Assembly: GCF_004354085.1 (NCBI RefSeq)
Contig: NZ_SMSE01000001.1
Location: 859,724 to 923,723 of the forward strand
Direction: 5' to 3'
Length of the DNA stretch: 64,000 nt
Source: Seongchinamella unica
Lineage (GTDB): Bacteria > Pseudomonadota > Gammaproteobacteria > Pseudomonadales > Halieaceae
The notes below the pieces were generated by a model, which made no database searches, was not told the origin of the DNA, and saw only the letters and a list, made by a program, of their open reading frames with translations. Position 1 is the stretch's first letter; every line of letters begins with the position of its first letter. Position numbers and translations under genes: made by a program. Below are positions 31,970 to 40,615 of the stretch, in pieces.

Positions 31970-33232
31970 ATGCGCTTGAAACTATCAGCCTTCGGAGAAA
32001 AATTTTCAGGCCGGTCGGGCATCGTCGAACTGATGGATGACCTGGGCACTGCCCTCAATGAGAACCCGGACATGATATTCATGGGCGGTGGCAATCCCGG
32101 CCGCCTGCCGGAGATGGAACGCATATTCCAGCAACGGCTGGAAACCATCATGTCGGACCCGGCACAGCGACACAGCCTGTTCGGCATTTACCAGTCACCC
32201 CAGGGCGACAGGGAGTTTCGCCAGCGACTGGCAGCCTTCCTCAACAAGCACTACGGTTGGCCAGTGGGCGAACACAATATCGCCATCAGCAACGGTAGCC
32301 AGTCGGCGTTCTTTGTCCTCTTCAATATGCTCGCCGGGGAGATGCCCGACGGTCGCCGGCGCAGTATTCACCTGCCGCTGGCGCCGGAGTACATCGGCTA
32401 TGCCGACACCGGCCTGAGCGATCACTTTTTTTCCGCCACCCGTCCCAGTATCGAGCGGCTGGACCAGCACCTGTTCAAGTATCACGTGGATTTCTCACAG
32501 CTGGAGGTCGACAGCTCGGTAGCGGCCCTGTGCGTTTCACGGCCCACCAACCCAACCGGCAATGTACTCACTGACGATGAGGTGCGGCACCTCGACAGCA
32601 TCGCCGGCGCCAACGGAATTCCCCTGATTATCGACGGCGCTTACGGTCTGCCCTTTCCCAACATCCTGTTCGAGCCTGCCACACCGCACTGGAATGAAAA
32701 CACCATACTGGCCCTGAGCCTGTCCAAACTGGGGTTGCCCGGGGTGCGAACCGGCATACTGGTCGCCAGCGAGGAGCTGATCCGGGCGTATACCAACGCA
32801 AATACCATTGTCAGCCTCGCCTGCGGGACTCTGGGGCCGGCCCTGGCGCGGGCGCTTTTCGACAGCGGCGAGATACTCACCCTGAGCCGCGACTTTGTGA
32901 CGCCCTTCTACCGGGAGCGCTCCCGCCAGGCCGTGGCGTGGTTCCAGCAAAGCCTCGGGGACCTGCCCTGGCACGTGCACAAGCCTGAGGGCGCCATATT
33001 TCTCTGGCTGTGGTTTGAAAAGCTGCCGATTACCAGCCAGCAACTCTACCAACGCCTGAAGCAGCGGGGTGTGCTGGTGGTACCGGGACAGAATTTCTTC
33101 GTCGGTATGGACGACGACTGGTCCCACAAGCACGAGTGCATACGGGTGTCCTACGCCCAGGACGCCGGCAAAGTGCGCGAGGGTATCGACATCATCGGCG
33201 AAGAAGTTCACCGGGCCTACCGGGAAGGCTGA
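31970..33232 (+). CDS. avtA: Valine-pyruvate aminotransferase
   Basis: 420 residues of the class I/II PLP aminotransferase fold. AvtA interconverts valine plus pyruvate with 2-oxoisovalerate plus alanine. Characteristic AvtA segments are the N-terminal SAFGEKFSGRSGIVELMDDLG, MGGGNPGRLPEME, and the PLP lysine Lys253 in SLSKLGLPGVRTG. SRPTNPTGNV and the C-terminal substrate Arg in CIRVSYAQD are also present. The gene stands alone, divergent from the DUF3667 gene. A separate promoter was not identified. Confidence 0.9.
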   Translation: MRLKLSAFGEKFSGRSGIVELMDDLGTALNENPDMIFMGGGNPGRLPEMERIFQQRLETIMSDPAQRHSLFGIYQSPQGDREFRQRLAAFLNKHYGWPVGEHNIAISNGSQSAFFVLFNMLAGEMPDGRRRSIHLPLAPEYIGYADTGLSDHFFSATRPSIERLDQHLFKYHVDFSQLEVDSSVAALCVSRPTNPTGNVLTDDEVRHLDSIAGANGIPLIIDGAYGLPFPNILFEPATPHWNENTILALSLSKLGLPGVRTGILVASEELIRAYTNANTIVSLACGTLGPALARALFDSGEILTLSRDFVTPFYRERSRQAVAWFQQSLGDLPWHVHKPEGAIFLWLWFEKLPITSQQLYQRLKQRGVLVVPGQNFFVGMDDDWSHKHECIRVSYAQDAGKVREGIDIIGEEVHRAYREG

Positions 33233-33308
33233 AACCGGAGCGGGATCGAACCCGGTCCGCTATTGGTGGTCATAGCTACAGACGCCGGCAACACAACAAG
33301 GAATTTCC

Positions 33309-35180
33309 ATGCCCCGTTTTCTTTTTTACCTGATCGCAATCCCGCTGGTACTGGTAGTGGCCGGGGTTATCCTGGTGACGCTGTTCGTGGACGAGGAAAA
33401 AATACTGGCGCTGGCGGCGGACGAACTCCGGCAGAAAACCGGGGCAACCCTGGAGGTCGGCGGCGCCGCTGACCTGAGCATCTTCCCCCGACTCGGGCTG
33501 AGCCTGGAACAGGTGGCGCTCGATATGCCCGGTGAACAGCAGACCAGCCTGCGGGCCCGCACCCTCGAAATCGGGGTGCAAATGATGCCGCTGTTGTCGA
33601 AGCAGGTGGTCATCGACAGCATCCTGCTGGACGGGGTGGTCATTTCGATGGTCACCGAGCCGGCACCGGATCCGGTGGACACCAGTTCCTACAATGACCA
33701 GCAACTGGCCCGGTTCTACCAGCAAAAAGAAGCCGACAGAGTTGAGGCGGGCAAGGCCGCCAGCGCAGAGAACATACTGGCGATACCCCTGGCGCTGGAG
33801 GTGGCAAAACTGCACATTACCGACTCGCGCATTGAGATTACAGAAACCGGCGCCGACACCCAGGTGATCGAAATCACCAGCTTCACGGTCGAGGGGCTCA
33901 ACCTCGATGGACGCCCGATTCCCGTGGCCGCCGCTATCAGCGTTGCCGGCGAGCCACCGGTGGTGGTGAGCCTCAAGGGCAAGGTGATGATTAACCAGGA
34001 GACCCAGGTTATCGGGCTGGAAACCATGGACCTCGCGGTCACCGGGGCACTGCAGGCACCGATCTCAATGACCACCTCCGGGGAGGTAGATATCAACCGC
34101 CGGATAGCGGACCTGAACCTGGTGGCGGATATCAGCGACACCAGGGCCGAGGGACAATTGCGCTACGCCAGCTTCGAGAGTCCGCAGGTTGATGCCCAGC
34201 TGCGCCTCAACCAGTTTACCCCTGCCCTGCTGGCACTGGCGGGCCCCGACGCCGCCAGTGCGGAAACCGCCCCGACAGAACCCAGGGACCAGGACGATGT
34301 GCCACTCCCGCTGGATGCGCTGCGCCTCATGGACACCCGGGCCGACCTTGCCATCGACCAGGTCATCTGGGGTAACCACCGGGTAGACGAATTCAAGGCC
34401 AAACTGCGGGTCGTGGACGGCCAGGCCATCTTCCACAAGATTACCGGTGCCATTCACGGCGGCACACTCACCATGAAAGCCAGCCTCAATGCCAGGGAAA
34501 GCACCGCCAAAGTCAACGCCCAGGGAGACCTGCAACAGCTGGATATCGCCAGCGCATTGGCAGCATCGGACGTGGAACCCATTCTCACCGGCCAGGCCAG
34601 CCTGGACTGGAAGCTTCACGGCCAGGGCAACACCAGCGGGGCCATCACCAACACCCTGCGAGGGCCGGTGAATTTAATAACCGAACAGGCGGTGCTGCAG
34701 GGCATGGGCGTGGAAAAAATGCTGTGTGAGACCGTGGCGCTGGTTAACCAGGAAGCCCTTGCCACAGACTTCCCCGAGGATAGCGCCTTCGAGGAATTGT
34801 CCGTTTCCCTGCAGTTGGCCGGTGGGAAGGCCCGGTTGCAACCACTGAAAGCCAGTTTCCCCGATATCCGCCTGCTTGGCGAGGGCGCCATGGACATCGC
34901 CACGCTCGATTTCGACACCACCTTTACCGCCAGGCTATCCCCTGGTCTGGAGCAACTGGATCCGGCGTGCCGGGTCAATGAGCGCATCACAGCCATCGCA
35001 TGGCCGGTCAACTGCCGGGGCAACGCGAGCGGCGACCCGGCCGACTGGTGCGCCGTGGACAGCCAGGAAATCATCGAGGACCTGGCGACCAACGAACTCA
35101 AGCGCAAGGCCCAGAAAGAGATCGAGAAAAAGTACGGCGAGGAAGCCGGCGCACTGCTGAAGGGGCTGCTGGGCAATTAG
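33309..35180 (+). CDS. AsmA-family protein
   Basis: 623 residues. A single N-terminal membrane anchor (about 5-25, LFYLIAIPLVLVVAGVILV) leads into the AsmA N-terminal domain (KTGATLEVGGAADLSIFPRLGLSL) and a long beta-rich body ending in the AsmA C-terminal domain (ITNTLRGPVNLITEQAVLQG, IRLLGEGAMDIATL). AsmA-like proteins span the periplasm and are implicated in phospholipid traffic to the outer membrane, the same broad role as TamB encoded at 7450-10998. A charged coiled tail rich in Lys and Glu closes the protein. Confidence 0.87.
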   Translation: MPRFLFYLIAIPLVLVVAGVILVTLFVDEEKILALAADELRQKTGATLEVGGAADLSIFPRLGLSLEQVALDMPGEQQTSLRARTLEIGVQMMPLLSKQVVIDSILLDGVVISMVTEPAPDPVDTSSYNDQQLARFYQQKEADRVEAGKAASAENILAIPLALEVAKLHITDSRIEITETGADTQVIEITSFTVEGLNLDGRPIPVAAAISVAGEPPVVVSLKGKVMINQETQVIGLETMDLAVTGALQAPISMTTSGEVDINRRIADLNLVADISDTRAEGQLRYASFESPQVDAQLRLNQFTPALLALAGPDAASAETAPTEPRDQDDVPLPLDALRLMDTRADLAIDQVIWGNHRVDEFKAKLRVVDGQAIFHKITGAIHGGTLTMKASLNARESTAKVNAQGDLQQLDIASALAASDVEPILTGQASLDWKLHGQGNTSGAITNTLRGPVNLITEQAVLQGMGVEKMLCETVALVNQEALATDFPEDSAFEELSVSLQLAGGKARLQPLKASFPDIRLLGEGAMDIATLDFDTTFTARLSPGLEQLDPACRVNERITAIAWPVNCRGNASGDPADWCAVDSQEIIEDLATNELKRKAQKEIEKKYGEEAGALLKGLLGN

Positions 35181-35274
35181 CACCCCATGCCTACGCGCCA
35201 AAACCTTTAGCTAAATCAATTTTTGCCGGTGCCGGGCCTGATACCCTTGTGCTGAATCAAGCTTAAGGGCGCCA

Positions 35275-36009
35275 GTGACCTCTACCCTAAAAAAACTGCT
35301 CACCGCCATGCTGGGCAGCCTGCGGGATCTGTTGCCAATCATCCTGGTGATCCTGTTCTTCCAGTTTGCGGTGCTGCAACAACCCCTGCCGAATGTCGGC
35401 CAGATCCTGGTCGGTGTGCTCTTCGTGGTGCTGGGCCTGACATTTTTTATTCACGGGCTGGAGCAGGGCCTGTTTCCTATCGGCGAGTCCATGGCCAGCG
35501 CCTTTGCCCGCAAGGGCAGCCTGTTCTGGTTGATTGCCTTCGCCTTCGCCCTCGGTTTCGGGACAACCGTGGCCGAGCCCGCACTGATCGCGGTGGCGGC
35601 AGAGGCCGCTTCGGTGGCTGCCGAAGGCGGTATGATAGCGTCGACCGATGATGCCCGCAGCGAGTATGCCAGCGGCCTGAGATACACAGTGGCATTCTCG
35701 GTCGGGCTGGCAATCGTCATCGGTGTCGTGCGCATTATCAAGGGCTGGCCGGTACAGTGGCTGATTATCGGCGGCTATGTTCTGGTGGTGATCATGACCA
35801 TGTTCGCGCCACAGGAAATTATCGGCATTGCCTATGACTCCGGCGGCGTCACCACCTCCACCATTACCGTGCCACTGGTGACAGCGCTGGGGGTGGGACT
35901 GGCCTCCTCCATACGCGGCCGTAACCCGATGATCGACGGCTTTGGCCTTATTGCCTTCGCGTCCCTGACCCCGATGATTTTCGTCATGGCCTACGGGATG
36001 CTGATCTGA
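35275..36009 (+). CDS. DUF1538-family membrane protein, first of a pair
   Basis: 244 residues with about six to seven membrane helices. The signature segments [35 protein letters not shown] and [16 protein letters not shown] define DUF1538. A GTG start at 35275 is preceded by AAGGG; a later ATG at 35308 is possible. The stop overlaps the start of a second DUF1538 gene by one base. From memory, a two-component DUF1538 pair in Halomonas was reported as a cation/proton antiporter (UmpAB); whether this pair does the same is inference. The following PII-like and CBS genes suggest control by a nucleotide signal. Confidence 0.83.
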
Positions 36010-36815
36010 TGGAGTTGTTCACCGCTATCTGGACCACCACCCTGGGCACGGTGAAGGACGTGATACCGATCGCCGTTATTATTTTTGGCTTCCAGTTCGC
36101 GGTCATACGGCAGAAGCCGGCCAACCTGGCGGAGATACTGTTCGGCTTCTGCTGGGTGCTGGTGGGCCTCTCGCTGTTCCTGCTGGGGCTGGAATGGTGC
36201 CTGTTCCCCCTGGGCCGGTTGATGGCCGCGCAGCTGACCGACCCCGGCTTTATCCGCGGCGCACTGGAAGCGGGAGACCTCGCTGCGGATGTGGCCTGGA
36301 CAGATTATTACTGGGTTTACATTTTCGCCTTTATGATCGGCTTCAGCACCACCATTGCCGAGCCCTCGCTGATCGCTGTGGCGATCAAGGCCAGTGAAGT
36401 ATCCGGTGGTGCCATTGGCATCTGGGGACTGCGTATCGCGGTCGCGCTCGGGGTCGCGGTGGGCATATCCCTGGGCTGCTACCGCATCGTGGCCGGTGAC
36501 CCCATCCACTGGTATATCATTGCCGGCTATGTGCTGGTGGTACTGCAAACCGCGGTAGCGCCAAAAATGATTATTCCCCTGGCCTACGATTCCGGCGGGG
36601 TAACCACCTCAACCGTGACGGTGCCCCTGGTGGCCGCACTGGGCCTGGGATTGGCGGAAACCGTACCCGGCCGTAACCCGCTTATTGACGGCTTTGGCCT
36701 GATCGCCTTTGCCAGCCTGTTTCCCATACTTTCGGTAATGGCCTACGCTCAGCTCTCGGAACTGCGCAGCGCTGTGGCCCGGAGGCGAAAGGAGGACGCG
36801 CAACATCGCGCATAA
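36009..36815 (+). CDS. DUF1538-family membrane protein, second of a pair
   Basis: 268 residues, clearly paralogous to the preceding protein: it repeats [38 protein letters not shown] and [16 protein letters not shown]. The duplicated, similarly sized subunits suggest a heteromeric membrane complex. It ends in a short basic cytoplasmic tail (ARRRKEDAQHRA). A PII-like gene begins 9 bases after its stop. Direct experimental function is unknown to me for this lineage. Confidence 0.83.
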   Translation: MELFTAIWTTTLGTVKDVIPIAVIIFGFQFAVIRQKPANLAEILFGFCWVLVGLSLFLLGLEWCLFPLGRLMAAQLTDPGFIRGALEAGDLAADVAWTDYYWVYIFAFMIGFSTTIAEPSLIAVAIKASEVSGGAIGIWGLRIAVALGVAVGISLGCYRIVAGDPIHWYIIAGYVLVVLQTAVAPKMIIPLAYDSGGVTTSTVTVPLVAALGLGLAETVPGRNPLIDGFGLIAFASLFPILSVMAYAQLSELRSAVARRRKEDAQHRA

Positions 36816-36824
36816 GGAGAAGCC

Positions 36825-37175
36825 ATGCACTTCAAAATGATTATCGTCTTTACCGAGGACGACAAGACCGAGGCCATCATGGATGCCGCCCGTGAGGCCG
36901 GAGCCACCGGGGCCACTGTCATCCACAATGCCCGTGGCGAGGGGCTCAAGGTCAGCAAGACCTTTTTCGGGCTGAGCCTGGAGACCCAGCGGGATGTGAT
37001 TCTGATGCTGGTGGAGCAGCACCTGTCGCGGCAGATTCTCGAGGAAATCAATCGCGCCGGCGAACTGGACGACAGGCCCGGCACCGGCATTGCTTTTCAG
37101 CTGGATGTGGAGGACGCGGTAGGTATCACCCGCCAGGCCATGCAGCTATCCCGTGACGTAGAGGAATTGATCTGA
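36825..37175 (+). CDS. PII-like signalling protein with shortened T-loop
   Basis: 116 residues with the ferredoxin-like PII fold: MHFKMIIVFTEDDKTEAIMDAA at the start, GATGATVIHNARGEG as the beta2 region, and GTGIAFQLDVEDAVGI near the C terminus. The T-loop region (GEGLKVSKTFFGLSLETQRD) is shorter than in GlnB/GlnK and lacks the uridylylated tyrosine of the YRGAEY motif, so it is not a classical nitrogen regulator. Position 9 bases behind two DUF1538 genes and one base overlapping a CBS-domain gene suggests it controls that membrane pair by binding nucleotides. Confidence 0.8.
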   Translation: MHFKMIIVFTEDDKTEAIMDAAREAGATGATVIHNARGEGLKVSKTFFGLSLETQRDVILMLVEQHLSRQILEEINRAGELDDRPGTGIAFQLDVEDAVGITRQAMQLSRDVEELI

Positions 37176-37579
37176 TGAACCGTAAAGTCATTAAAGCCAG
37201 GGACGTCATGCACGCAAACCACCTGGAGATAGACGGCATGGCCACCGTGGCCGAAGCGCTGAGCGCCATGCGTAAAGAGCGGTCCGAAGTGCTGATCGTG
37301 AAAAAACGCAACGAAAACGACGCCTTTGGCATTGTGCTGCTGGCCGATGTCGCCAAGGAAGTACTGGCCCGGGACCGGGCAGCGGAGCGGGTCAATGTCT
37401 ACGAGATCATGTCCAAGCCGGTCATCCCGGTGGAGCCCGACATGGACGTGCGCTACGTGGCACGGATGTTCCAGAGCTTTGGCCTGTCCAATGCCCCGGT
37501 GATCGAGCATGGCAGGGTGATCGGTATTGTCAGCTACAGCGAGCTGGTGTTCGAGGGCCTGTGTAAACTGATCGAGTAA
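37175..37579 (+). CDS. Tandem CBS-domain protein
   Basis: 134 residues made of two CBS motifs, ARDVMHANHLEIDGMATVAEAL and VYEIMSKPVIPVEPDMDVRYVA..LSNAPVIEHGRVIGIVSYSEL. CBS pairs bind adenine nucleotides and regulate attached or neighbouring transporters. The start overlaps the PII-like stop by one base, so both are translated together with the DUF1538 pair. Likely an energy-sensing subunit of that module; inferred from context. Confidence 0.85.
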   Translation: MNRKVIKARDVMHANHLEIDGMATVAEALSAMRKERSEVLIVKKRNENDAFGIVLLADVAKEVLARDRAAERVNVYEIMSKPVIPVEPDMDVRYVARMFQSFGLSNAPVIEHGRVIGIVSYSELVFEGLCKLIE

Positions 37580-37584
37580 CGGGG

Positions 37585-38094
37585 CTATTCCGGCATGTGC
37601 GGGGCGTCGTCCTCCTCCAGCGAATGTTCCGGGTCCGCGGGGAGTTTGCCCAGCCACTTGACCAGGTGGGCAGCATGGGATGCCTCCTCAGCAGAAAATC
37701 GCGAGGCCAGCCGCCGGGTTTCGCTATCACTGCTGGTTTCGGCGAAAGATCGGTAAAACCGCTCGGCGGCCCGTTCGTTATCGAGTGCCAGCAACATGGC
37801 CTGGCGCAGGGTCATGCGGTAGTGCACCGCCTCGTAGCTGGCCGCTTCCGGTGATTCCTCCTCCGGCCAGTTGAACTCCCAGGCCTTGAGGTCGGGCAGG
37901 TCGTGTTGCTCGGCAATTTCCGCCACTTCCTCCAGGTGCAGCCGCGACTCGTCGGCCATACGGCCAAAGAACTCCGCAACCTCACTGTTATTGTGCTCTG
38001 CCATGGCCTCGGACAGTTCAAGGTAGCGTTCCCGGGCCTCTGACTCCAGTTCCACCGAATGGGCCAGAAATTCACCCAGCTGTTGCTTGCTCAT
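37585..38094 (-). CDS. Ferritin-like/rubrerythrin-type diiron protein
   Basis: 169 residues forming a four-helix bundle. Diiron ligands follow the rubrerythrin pattern: a Glu at about residue 15-17 (SVELESEARERY), Glu49-His53 in DESRLH, Glu107 in DNERAAERFY, and Glu137-His140 in EEASH. There is no rubredoxin domain. The start overlaps the stop of the 2-oxoacid oxidoreductase beta gene by 4 bases, so it belongs to that operon. A protective role against oxygen or peroxide for the iron-sulfur enzyme is a plausible inference. Confidence 0.8.
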   Translation of the reverse strand: MSKQQLGEFLAHSVELESEARERYLELSEAMAEHNNSEVAEFFGRMADESRLHLEEVAEIAEQHDLPDLKAWEFNWPEEESPEAASYEAVHYRMTLRQAMLLALDNERAAERFYRSFAETSSDSETRRLASRFSAEEASHAAHLVKWLGKLPADPEHSLEEDDAPHMPE

Positions 38095-38915
38095 AATCTG
38101 AATCCTTCGCTGATGTCCGCTGATTGCACCTGCGCCTGCGGCCCTGGCCAGCTATTGCGCGGCGCGGCATAAAGCAACCCGGTCTGGAAGCCATCTTCGT
38201 GGTGAAACAGGCTGGCCGCAACGTCAGCGTCGCTCAGTGCCGGCTCGCTACGCTCACTGACGATGGACTTCCAGTCTGTCTGCTCCGGACAAAAGGTAAT
38301 GCACTGGGACAGCACATGCAAAAAACTGAATCCCGGATGTTCGATAGCGGCGGCAATCAACCCGGCCATCTGGTTGGGGTTGCCGGAATAACCCCGGGCG
38401 ATCCACGGCGCCCCCGCCGCCAGGGCCAGAGCCGCCGGCTTGAACGGCCGCACACCGGGGCCGTGGGGGGTGAGCTTGCTGTGATCCCAGTCGGCCGGGG
38501 TAGTGGGTGACGCCTGGCCCTTGGTCATCCCGTAGACCTCATTGTCCATGGCGATATAGGTCATGTTCACATTGCGCCGGCAGGCGTGCAGAAAATGATT
38601 GCCGCCAATGGAGAACCCGTCCCCATCACCGCCCAGGGCAATGACTGTGAGATCCGGTCGCGCGACCTTGAGTCCCTGGGCAATGGCAAGTCCCCGCCCG
38701 TGAACCCCGTGAAATCCGTAGCTGTCCACGTAGGCAGGCAAGCGGGAGGAACAACCGATGCCCGAGACCAGTACTGTGTCGTCCTTGGCAATGCCCAGAC
38801 CGGCGAAGGCCTTGGTGATGGCGTTGAGCACCGAGAAGTGGCCACAGCCCGGGCACCAGATAGGCTTGACCTCTGACTTGTAATCCTTGGCCCTTACTTT
38901 CACAGACTGCTTCAT
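38091..38915 (-). CDS. 2-oxoacid:acceptor oxidoreductase, beta subunit
   Basis: 274 residues. Binds thiamine diphosphate and a 4Fe-4S cluster. Cys21 and Cys24 are in WCPGCGH, Cys55 in GIGCSS, and Cys205/Cys209 in SQCITFC supply cluster ligands; ALGGDGDGFSIGGNH is the thiamine diphosphate motif. This matches KorB-type 2-oxoglutarate:ferredoxin oxidoreductases, but other 2-oxoacids are possible. The ATG at 38915 shares its A with the TGA stop of the alpha gene (TGATG), showing tight coupling; the longer upstream frame is just the end of the alpha gene in another frame. Confidence 0.9.
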   Translation of the reverse strand: MKQSVKVRAKDYKSEVKPIWCPGCGHFSVLNAITKAFAGLGIAKDDTVLVSGIGCSSRLPAYVDSYGFHGVHGRGLAIAQGLKVARPDLTVIALGGDGDGFSIGGNHFLHACRRNVNMTYIAMDNEVYGMTKGQASPTTPADWDHSKLTPHGPGVRPFKPAALALAAGAPWIARGYSGNPNQMAGLIAAAIEHPGFSFLHVLSQCITFCPEQTDWKSIVSERSEPALSDADVAASLFHHEDGFQTGLLYAAPRNSWPGPQAQVQSADISEGFRL

Positions 38916-40615
38916 CAGCGGCCCTCCGCGGTCATGTAATCGGCAATCGCCCGCCCGTTCAGGGGCACCGGGCCGGCCCGGCTGTAACTTGCCACGGGCA
39001 CCGCGAACTCCATCTGGCCGCGCAGGTAATGAAACAGCTGGGCACCGTGATTCTGTTCCACCACCACCACCCGGCGGCAGCCCGCAAGCGCTGCTGCCAG
39101 TCGCTCGTGTTGCAGGGGCGCCACCAGGCGCAGGGCCACCGTCCGCGTACTGAGGCCGGCGTCGGCCAGGATCGTGGCCGCCTCGGTCACCGCCGCCCAG
39201 GCCGAGCCGAAACACAGCAGGGCCAGCTCTCCCGTGCCATCGATACGGGCCCAGGCGTCGCCAAAGGGGTGATTGTTCAATTTGCCGGCCCGCTTGGCCA
39301 GTTGCTTCTGGTGGTCATCATCGCGCGCCGAGGGTGTACCCCGCTCATTGTGCTCCAGGCCGTCGGCGGTGAAACGCTGGTCCGCGTCCCCGGGTGCCGC
39401 CAGCGTGGACACACCTGACTCGGTCAGTCTGTAGCGCAGGTAGTCGTTCCCGCTGTCCTGCGCGGGGAATTCCGGCCTGGGACAGCGAACGGGCTCGGTA
39501 ACCACCGCCGTCGACTGGCCGATGAACTGGTCGGAGAGCACAATGGCTGCGGTCTGCAGGCCCTGCGCCAGGTGCACCGCCCAGGCGCTGGTATAGACGC
39601 AGTCGGCAATGTCCAGAGGCGCCAGCACCAGGTGGGGAGCGTCTCCGTGCAGACCGTTGAGGGCGATATTGAGGTCGCTTTGCTCGGACTTGGTGGGAAT
39701 ACCGGTGGAGGGCCCGCCGCGCATGACGTCGAGAATGGTCACCGGCGTTTCACTGGCCACCGCCAGCCCGATACTCTCGGTCATCAGCGCCAGCCCGGGC
39801 CCGGAAGTGGCGGTGAATGACGGCACACCGCCAAAAGCCGCCCCCAGGGTCATATTGATAGCCGCCAGTTCGTCTTCCGCCTGCACCAGCTGGCCGCCGA
39901 GTTTTTCCAGCCCTCCTGCCATCCACTCGAGTACATCGGATGCAGGGGTTATGGGGTAGGCGGCAACAAAGCGGACGCCGGCCTCCAGCGCCCCCAGGCC
40001 GGCTGCCTGATTGCCGCTGAGGTACCAGGCCCCGGGTTCACCCAGCGGTGGCGCAGCCAGCTGGCAGGGCAGCGACAACTGACTGCCCGCCTCAATACAG
40101 GCTGCCGCGGCATCCTGGTAAGCCTGTGGTTTTGCGGCGAGCTTGTTCCGGGCCAGCGACTGCAGGTCTGCACTGGCAAGCCCCAGCAACCGCCCCAACA
40201 GACCCAACGCGATCATGTTTACCCGGCCCTCTTCGTGAGTGTCGACGGCCAGGTCAGCCAGCGGCAGGTAATGCACATCGGGGTCTACCGCCCGCACCGG
40301 CGGCGGCAGCTCGCCTTCTTCCCCGCAAATCACCAGCGCACCGGGGCAGAGCGTTATCTCGTCACCAAAGCGGTTGAAGTTTGTCCAGTCGAAGGCCAGA
40401 AACAGGTCGTAACGGTCTGCGGGGGTATAGTGTTCAGTATCGGTGAGTTTCAGCAGGGCGGCGGATTCGCCGCCGCGGATTTGTGGTCCGAAAGCCTTGC
40501 GCAGCAGGCCCCGGCCGCCGCCTGCCGCCCAGGTTTGCAACAGCAGCTCGCCGACGGATATGACACCGGCGCCGCCGGCGCCGGTGATTGCTATGGAAAG
40601 CTGTTGCTGCGTCAT
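38915..40615 (-). CDS. 2-oxoacid:acceptor oxidoreductase, fused gamma-alpha subunit
   Basis: 566 residues. The gamma domain is N-terminal (ITGAGGAGVISVGELLLQTW, GPQIRGGESAAL) and the alpha pyrimidine-binding domain follows (about residue 200 on: YLSGNQAAGLGALEAGVRFVA, YPITPASD, TSGPGLALMTESIGLA, GGPSTGIPTKSEQSDLN). This is the KorA-type layout of ferredoxin-dependent 2-oxoacid oxidoreductases, used by some aerobes in place of the usual dehydrogenase complex. With the beta subunit it decarboxylates a 2-oxoacid to the acyl-CoA. Confidence 0.9.
   Translation of the reverse strand: MTQQQLSIAITGAGGAGVISVGELLLQTWAAGGGRGLLRKAFGPQIRGGESAALLKLTDTEHYTPADRYDLFLAFDWTNFNRFGDEITLCPGALVICGEEGELPPPVRAVDPDVHYLPLADLAVDTHEEGRVNMIALGLLGRLLGLASADLQSLARNKLAAKPQAYQDAAAACIEAGSQLSLPCQLAAPPLGEPGAWYLSGNQAAGLGALEAGVRFVAAYPITPASDVLEWMAGGLEKLGGQLVQAEDELAAINMTLGAAFGGVPSFTATSGPGLALMTESIGLAVASETPVTILDVMRGGPSTGIPTKSEQSDLNIALNGLHGDAPHLVLAPLDIADCVYTSAWAVHLAQGLQTAAIVLSDQFIGQSTAVVTEPVRCPRPEFPAQDSGNDYLRYRLTESGVSTLAAPGDADQRFTADGLEHNERGTPSARDDDHQKQLAKRAGKLNNHPFGDAWARIDGTGELALLCFGSAWAAVTEAATILADAGLSTRTVALRLVAPLQHERLAAALAGCRRVVVVEQNHGAQLFHYLRGQMEFAVPVASYSRAGPVPLNGRAIADYMTAEGR

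Follow-up and report, generated by a model that had tools for sequence, protein, structure and literature searches.

In the 64,000-nucleotide stretch of Seongchinamella unica DNA analysed here (the window), four consecutive genes on the forward strand encode two paralogous DUF1538 membrane proteins, a PII-like protein and a tandem-CBS protein. We think it probable that this operon specifies a monovalent-cation/proton antiporter with its own regulatory subunits: a UmpA+UmpB heterodimer as in Halomonas, for which both antiport and heterodimer formation are carried over from the literature on that homologue, a PII-like core regulator that would dock by its T-loop, and a CBS protein that would serve as an optional second sensor. 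The features of the unit, in window coordinates, are as follows.

35181..35274, + strand: gap of 94 bases 5' of umpA, probable promoter region
35275..36009, + strand: umpA-like gene, DUF1538 membrane protein of 244 aa, GTG start
36009..36815, + strand: umpB-like gene, DUF1538 membrane protein of 268 aa with a hydrophilic C-terminal tail
36825..37175, + strand: PII-like gene, 116 aa (Pfam P-II, Foldseek, VIA, pocket analysis)
37175..37579, + strand: tandem-CBS gene, 134 aa (Pfam, NCBIfam, conservation across 140 rows)

The first-pass annotation of this DNA had proposed these four reading frames, with these coordinates and family assignments and with overlaps or a 9-base gap between them, and the ORFs and Pfam matches agree with it. 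The umpA stop and the umpB start share 1 base, the PII stop and the CBS start share 1 base, and 9 bases separate umpB from the PII-like gene, with an AAGGAG just upstream of the PII start. By Pfam, an AsmA-family protein gene lies upstream of the unit and a convergent rubrerythrin/ferritin-like protein gene downstream; also near the operon is a gene of the pyruvate/2-oxoacid:ferredoxin oxidoreductase type on the - strand (38091-40615, with Pfam POR_N and POR on 38915-40615). A sequence scan of the + strand finds no sigma-70 consensus or promoter-like site in the 94-base gap, a promoter and terminator scan gives no signal above chance, and there are no Rfam families at 33000-39000.

The linkage of the four genes extends well beyond the window. 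The genome-wide survey that the annotation had suggested as a check was carried out on 168 loci (80 stretches from named genomes, 80 regions in two sets of 40, and 8 plasmid records), taking as adjacent any gene on the same strand at <=3 kb. A PII gene is adjacent to DUF1538 in 162 of the 168 loci, Bacillota included, and a CBS gene in 136, never without PII; 80 of these loci are from close relatives of the window, and genomes G113 and G454 contribute two loci each. A DUF1538 profile scan of named genomes gave 590 confirmed stretches, and the best 80 make up the named-genome sample; they are the closest relatives, many of them metagenome bins. Besides Gammaproteobacteria, the titles of these best 80 loci include Thiobacillus, Gallionellaceae, Rhodocyclaceae, Polarisedimenticolaceae and Desulfuromonadales. 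Among these best 80, the order UmpA-UmpB-PII-CBS on one strand is found in 77, which is beyond chance and supports the single module that had been claimed. The remaining three end at a contig edge: L110 breaks off behind umpA, L142 near the beginning of umpB and L113 behind PII. The genes outside the four-gene unit vary, and the commonest neighbour cluster occurs in 14/80 loci. An Amidase_2 gene cluster, presumably AmpD-like, occurs in 13/80 loci and lies within 21 bases 3' of CBS in 12 of those 13 (scanned at L107:6329-6958).

In the two sets of 40 regions, which were picked for diversity from the listed hits and are not a random draw, PII is adjacent to DUF1538 in 37/40 and 39/40, and CBS in 22/40 and 37/40. 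Nine of 72,556 plasmid records match UmpA, of which eight were opened (the ninth, H3, is from the same species as H2). All eight carry a PII gene next downstream of DUF1538, and none a CBS gene by profile. Querying the same 72,556 records with PII gives two matches, both directly downstream of DUF1538, so this query is specific but of low sensitivity. In viral contigs, no DUF1538 relative was confirmed. The association also holds at the level of whole genomes. Of 299 sampled genomes from the phylum, 116 contain DUF1538 (E<=0.001) and 115 match the Ump-type PII profile (E<=1e-10); 110 genomes have both, 6 only DUF1538, 5 only PII, and 178 neither (Fisher p 3e-67, a value overstated since the genomes are related). 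All six of the DUF1538-only genomes are less than 90% complete. This tight linkage of regulator genes to DUF1538 is new relative to the known UmpAB pump.

What the membrane pair transports is best read from its nearest characterised relatives. UmpA and UmpB score 240.2 and 223.2 bits against Pfam DUF1538 (PF07556), both above the gathering cut-off of 22.6. The nearest NCBIfam models are those for the Na,Li,K/H+ antiporter subunits UmpA (NF041627; 383.9 bits, E 2.5e-115) and UmpB (NF041628; 342.3 bits), and both scores lie below the respective equivalog cut-offs of 490 and 500. That UmpA cut-off is a narrow one: in a survey by the UmpA cut-off only, none of 369 genomes of the class and none of 20 further genomes passes it, and the Halomonas locus with the proven umpAB, which we sought in those 369 + 20 genomes to see if a PII gene comes next, was not found by it. 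Work on the Halomonas zhaodongensis pair showed that an E. coli lacking its antiporters is rescued at 0.2 M NaCl by UmpA and UmpB together but not by either one alone, that the two form a heterodimer by co-immunoprecipitation, and that Na+, Li+ and K+ are exchanged for H+ across pH 6.5-9.5 in everted vesicles (PMC5484666). The connection of a Halomonas DUF1538 pair with cation/proton exchange, which the annotation had mentioned, is that of a proven antiporter homologous to the window pair. By transfer from this homologue, the UmpA and UmpB of the window would carry out Na+(Li+,K+)/H+ antiport.

The AlphaFold2 model of UmpA is all-helical (pLDDT 87.5). Compared with the PDB, the DUF1538 fold has no Foldseek match at E<=0.001 (best E 1.8), its best VIA hit has Z 5.4 (rmsd 4.4, 95 aligned), and a DUF1538 profile search of the PDB sequences finds nothing below E 0.9. 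Profile comparison gives no signal of a two-half internal repeat. These searches detect no relative, which is not proof of a new fold, and since the fold matched nothing known, it adds no support for antiport. The same result leaves room for another reading, in which UmpAB naturally carries something different, such as bicarbonate, ammonium or some organic ion, and shows Na+/H+ exchange in E. coli as a side activity. Bicarbonate or ammonium is what the best known PII-gated transporters carry, and PII and CBS proteins would suit a carbon or nitrogen transporter on the model of SbtA-SbtB or AmtB-GlnK; without a detected solved relative, the DUF1538 fold does not fix the cargo. Antiport has been measured for one pair only in the literature accessible to us. 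We nevertheless regard a different cargo as unlikely, given the everted-vesicle antiport with Na+, Li+ and K+ (PMC5484666) and a machine-learning study of growth pH that places DUF1538 among the key features (PMC13255231).

The PII-like protein scores 41.4 bits against Pfam P-II (PF00543; cut-off 25), matches PII structures with a Foldseek probability of 1.00 (250 matches at E<=0.001), and reaches Z 12.3 by VIA (rmsd 3.3, 93 aligned). Its AlphaFold2 model, from 58 sequences, has the PII fold (pLDDT 77.2) with a low-confidence T-loop in which residues 38-46 are below 50. Like other PII proteins, it is probably a trimer. The three canonical PII proteins of the same genome score 99.9-118 bits with the Pfam profile, versus 41 for the PII-like protein. 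We aligned those three with 173 rows, namely the window protein and 172 of the 179 PII domains near DUF1538, leaving out seven domains below 60 bits (the L177 row duplicates L034). The Ump PII T-loop is 5 residues shorter than that of canonical PII; it reads KTFFGLSLETQRD in the window and follows the family pattern KTFFGLxLExQRD, with F47 conserved at 91%, G49 at 95% and T46 at 86%. Such strong conservation is what one fixed target would be expected to impose. Tyr51, which we take to be the uridylylation residue of canonical PII, is replaced in at least 170 of 173 copies (Thr in the window). Of the two residues that we assume to hold 2-oxoglutarate in canonical PII, Lys58 falls inside the 5-residue deletion in 173/173, and Gln39 is kept in 18/173 (Lys in the window). 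Of the presumed ATP-phosphate residues, Lys90 is found in 0/173, Arg101 has become Gly in all 166 copies that cover the site, and the site of Arg103 is mostly Ala, Ser, Glu or Asp (Thr in the window). The pocket retains Thr29 in 173, Gly35 in 173, Gly37 in 167 and Gly89 in 171 of the 173. Judged from this alignment, the glycine frame of the pocket is kept and the phosphate, 2-oxoglutarate and uridylylation residues are gone, and the Ump PII is a distinct PII subfamily, not a canonical GlnB/GlnK.

In the CBS protein, the Pfam CBS match (64.4 bits) covers residues 75-125, which is the second repeat only; the first is supported by NCBIfam CBS-bearing models that span residues 3-125, and two repeats are thus accounted for. 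Across 140 rows, the usual nucleotide motif, which we take to lie at positions 55/58 and 120/123, is better kept in the second repeat (Ser/Thr at 120 in 83%, Asp/Glu at 123 in 78%) than in the first (Asp58 in 89%, position 55 mostly Leu, 58%). Nucleotide binding by the CBS protein is plausible on this pattern.

These residues bear directly on a second alternative, in which the PII and CBS proteins are both sensors of adenylate energy charge (ATP/ADP/AMP) and thereby couple transporter gating to energy supply. The PII and CBS folds bind adenine nucleotides in other proteins, Thr29, Gly35, Gly37 and Gly89 persist in nearly all PII copies, and in most rows the second CBS repeat has Ser/Thr and Asp/Glu where the motif normally carries them. 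Against these stand the loss of the residues that would hold the polyphosphate (Lys90, Arg101 and the deleted Lys58) and a first CBS repeat whose motif Thr is mostly Leu. The PII family having lost its ATP-phosphate and 2-oxoglutarate residues, membership of a nucleotide-binding family is not evidence for energy-charge sensing. The first-pass annotation was right that the PII-like protein lacks the uridylylation tyrosine, has a short T-loop and is no nitrogen regulator of the usual kind, as the replacement of Tyr51 and the absence of Lys58, Lys90 and Arg101 bear out; its suggestion of a transporter gated by two different energy signals is unsupported for PII, where Lys90, Arg101 and Lys58 are gone and Gln39 survives in so few copies. 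Energy-charge sensing is possible, less likely than that annotation held, and we rate it as rather unlikely.

The module is rearranged in many lineages. Among the ORFs scanned, 30 have two domains that join UmpA to UmpB (a few places were fetched twice), and none joins DUF1538 to PII or CBS. All six Bacillota plasmid records opened (L152, L154, L155, L156, L158 and L159, of which L152 and L158 were read without annotation) have a fused UmpAB of 497-519 aa and, after it, a double PII protein of some 220 aa. In all six, the first PII domain scores lower than the second; five have a clear first domain, and that of L156 is weak (E 0.0017). In L193 the order is PII-CBS-UmpAB, in L034 a single CBS gene is flanked by two UmpAB-PII units, and in L070 and L202 two units stand in tandem. 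The divergent fused systems L181 and L182 have a second, very weak PII-like gene. Beside divergent DUF1538 genes at L179:4398-4808 and L180:3929-4339 we find 136-aa proteins that match nothing in Pfam at E<=0.01 and may be highly diverged PII proteins.

Six loci lack an adjacent PII gene. For L110 and L142 the contig ends. In L050 (genome G084) and L055 (genome G116), both of one family, umpAB is on one contig and PII and CBS are together on another. L051 is a UmpAB pair and L209 a lone UmpA, and a PII gene adjoins neither. Ump-type PII copies away from DUF1538 also occur, in the five PII-only genomes and in some others. The T-loop motif of these orphan copies is largely that of the linked ones, so it may not be specific to UmpAB. 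The separated PII-CBS genes of G084 and G116 and the orphan copies are what one would expect if PII and CBS were merely co-expressed with the antiporter and acted on other targets. This we find quite improbable, because DUF1538 is present in nearly all genomes with an Ump-type PII (110/115) and because the linkage persists through UmpAB fusion, PII duplication and the reordering in L193.

Several of the stray PII genes have neighbourhoods of their own. L164-L167, L172 and L176 carry an Ump-type PII on fetched stretches from which DUF1538 is absent; in L167 its upstream neighbour is an SH3-domain protein and its downstream neighbour an ETF-QO-like flavoprotein. L168-L171 and L178, likewise without DUF1538, contain another PII type with lower scores; downstream of the L168 copy come Dus, a PAS sensor kinase and a sigma-54 response regulator, the last two presumably NtrB/NtrC-like. 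Five genomes have one in-frame stop within the matched PII frame (G101:C80, which is L176; G045:C10; G097:C93; G073:C100; and G181:C133, which is L165). In L176 the stop is probably the gene's own end, and the PII ORF ends at residue 110.

Control by c-di-AMP, with the PII-like/CBS pair as counterpart of the c-di-AMP receptors DarA and DarB of Bacillus, would fit the shared folds, the control of potassium and osmotic homeostasis by c-di-AMP (PMC7900238, PMC7857571) and the diadenylate cyclase matches (E<=0.001) in 74 of 116 DUF1538 genomes, but that overlap is mostly one family (f33), and we disfavour such control in this organism as highly improbable because its 99.99% complete genome has no diadenylate cyclase match (PF02457; 11 of 14 control genomes match) and the 12 further DUF1538 genomes of its class in the sample, which do have the PII gene, show none either.

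We return to the antiporter with regulatory subunits. UmpAB works alone in E. coli, so catalysis does not depend on PII or CBS, and a regulatory role is the best reading of both. PII is nearly always present, CBS occurs only with PII and neither is needed for the pump to run in E. coli, which is why we assign to PII the role of dedicated regulatory subunit and core regulator. Docking, the direction of regulation and the ligands we infer. The UmpA+UmpB heterodimer would swap a monovalent cation for a proton; the short T-loop of PII may dock on UmpAB from the cytoplasmic side; and docked PII would restrain or release the antiporter, by analogy with GlnK and AmtB or SbtB and SbtA. The CBS protein would act together with PII as an optional second sensor. 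GlnK acts on AmtB and SbtB on SbtA, and both are precedents for PII-controlled transporters.

Few signalling proteins are as widespread as those of the PII family, which are known for nitrogen and carbon control. If our reading is true, a dedicated PII (and CBS) partner of an antiporter extends PII signalling to pH and sodium homeostasis, and the Halomonas DUF1538 pair was characterised without its likely regulators. A stronger version, which we put forward tentatively and hold to be doubtful, is that a PII subfamily across several bacterial phyla dropped ATP/2-oxoglutarate sensing and became an ion- or pH-sensing subunit of a cation/proton antiporter; PII signalling would then control cytoplasmic pH and sodium, not nitrogen or carbon. 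The module is small, and reconstitution in E. coli KNabc thus makes regulation directly testable. The UmpAB pump and PII-gated transporters are known already; their combination is absent from the literature searched. We found no published description that links PII or CBS to DUF1538 (most subscription journals lie outside the search), in keeping with the earlier remark that regulation by such partners is not worked out. The term PII has no hits in the accessible text of the growth-pH paper (PMC13255231) and of two cable-bacteria papers with UmpAB passages.

Four known systems resemble this operon in part. In Bacillus subtilis, DarA is a PII-like and DarB a CBS protein, stand-alone as in the window and likewise in a setting of ion homeostasis. 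They differ in being c-di-AMP receptors, whereas a diadenylate cyclase match is lacking in the genome of the window, and in the literature accessible to us they are not described as an antiporter operon. The Halomonas zhaodongensis UmpAB has, like the window, two paralogous DUF1538 proteins from overlapping genes, a shorter UmpA and then a longer UmpB with a hydrophilic tail. The window pair, unlike it, falls below the equivalog cut-offs (384 vs 490; 342 vs 500) and has PII and CBS genes, which are not among the four ORFs of the Halomonas clone; PII, P-II and CBS have no occurrence in the main text of that paper (PMC5484666). GlnK-AmtB likewise pairs a PII-fold protein with a membrane transporter, and the AmtB-GlnK complex 2ns1 is among our fold matches, although the transporter family differs and the Ump PII lacks Tyr51, Lys58, Lys90 and Arg101. 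SbtB is a carbon-control PII-like protein paired with the bicarbonate transporter SbtA. It differs in having structures with AMP, cAMP and ATP (by the titles of entries 6mmo, 6mmq and 6mm2); like the PII-like protein of the window, SbtB is a non-canonical PII with a dedicated membrane partner, and SbtB structures are among the Foldseek matches. A PII gene encoded together with the transporter, one mark of a PII-gated system of this kind, is found in 162 of the 168 DUF1538 loci.
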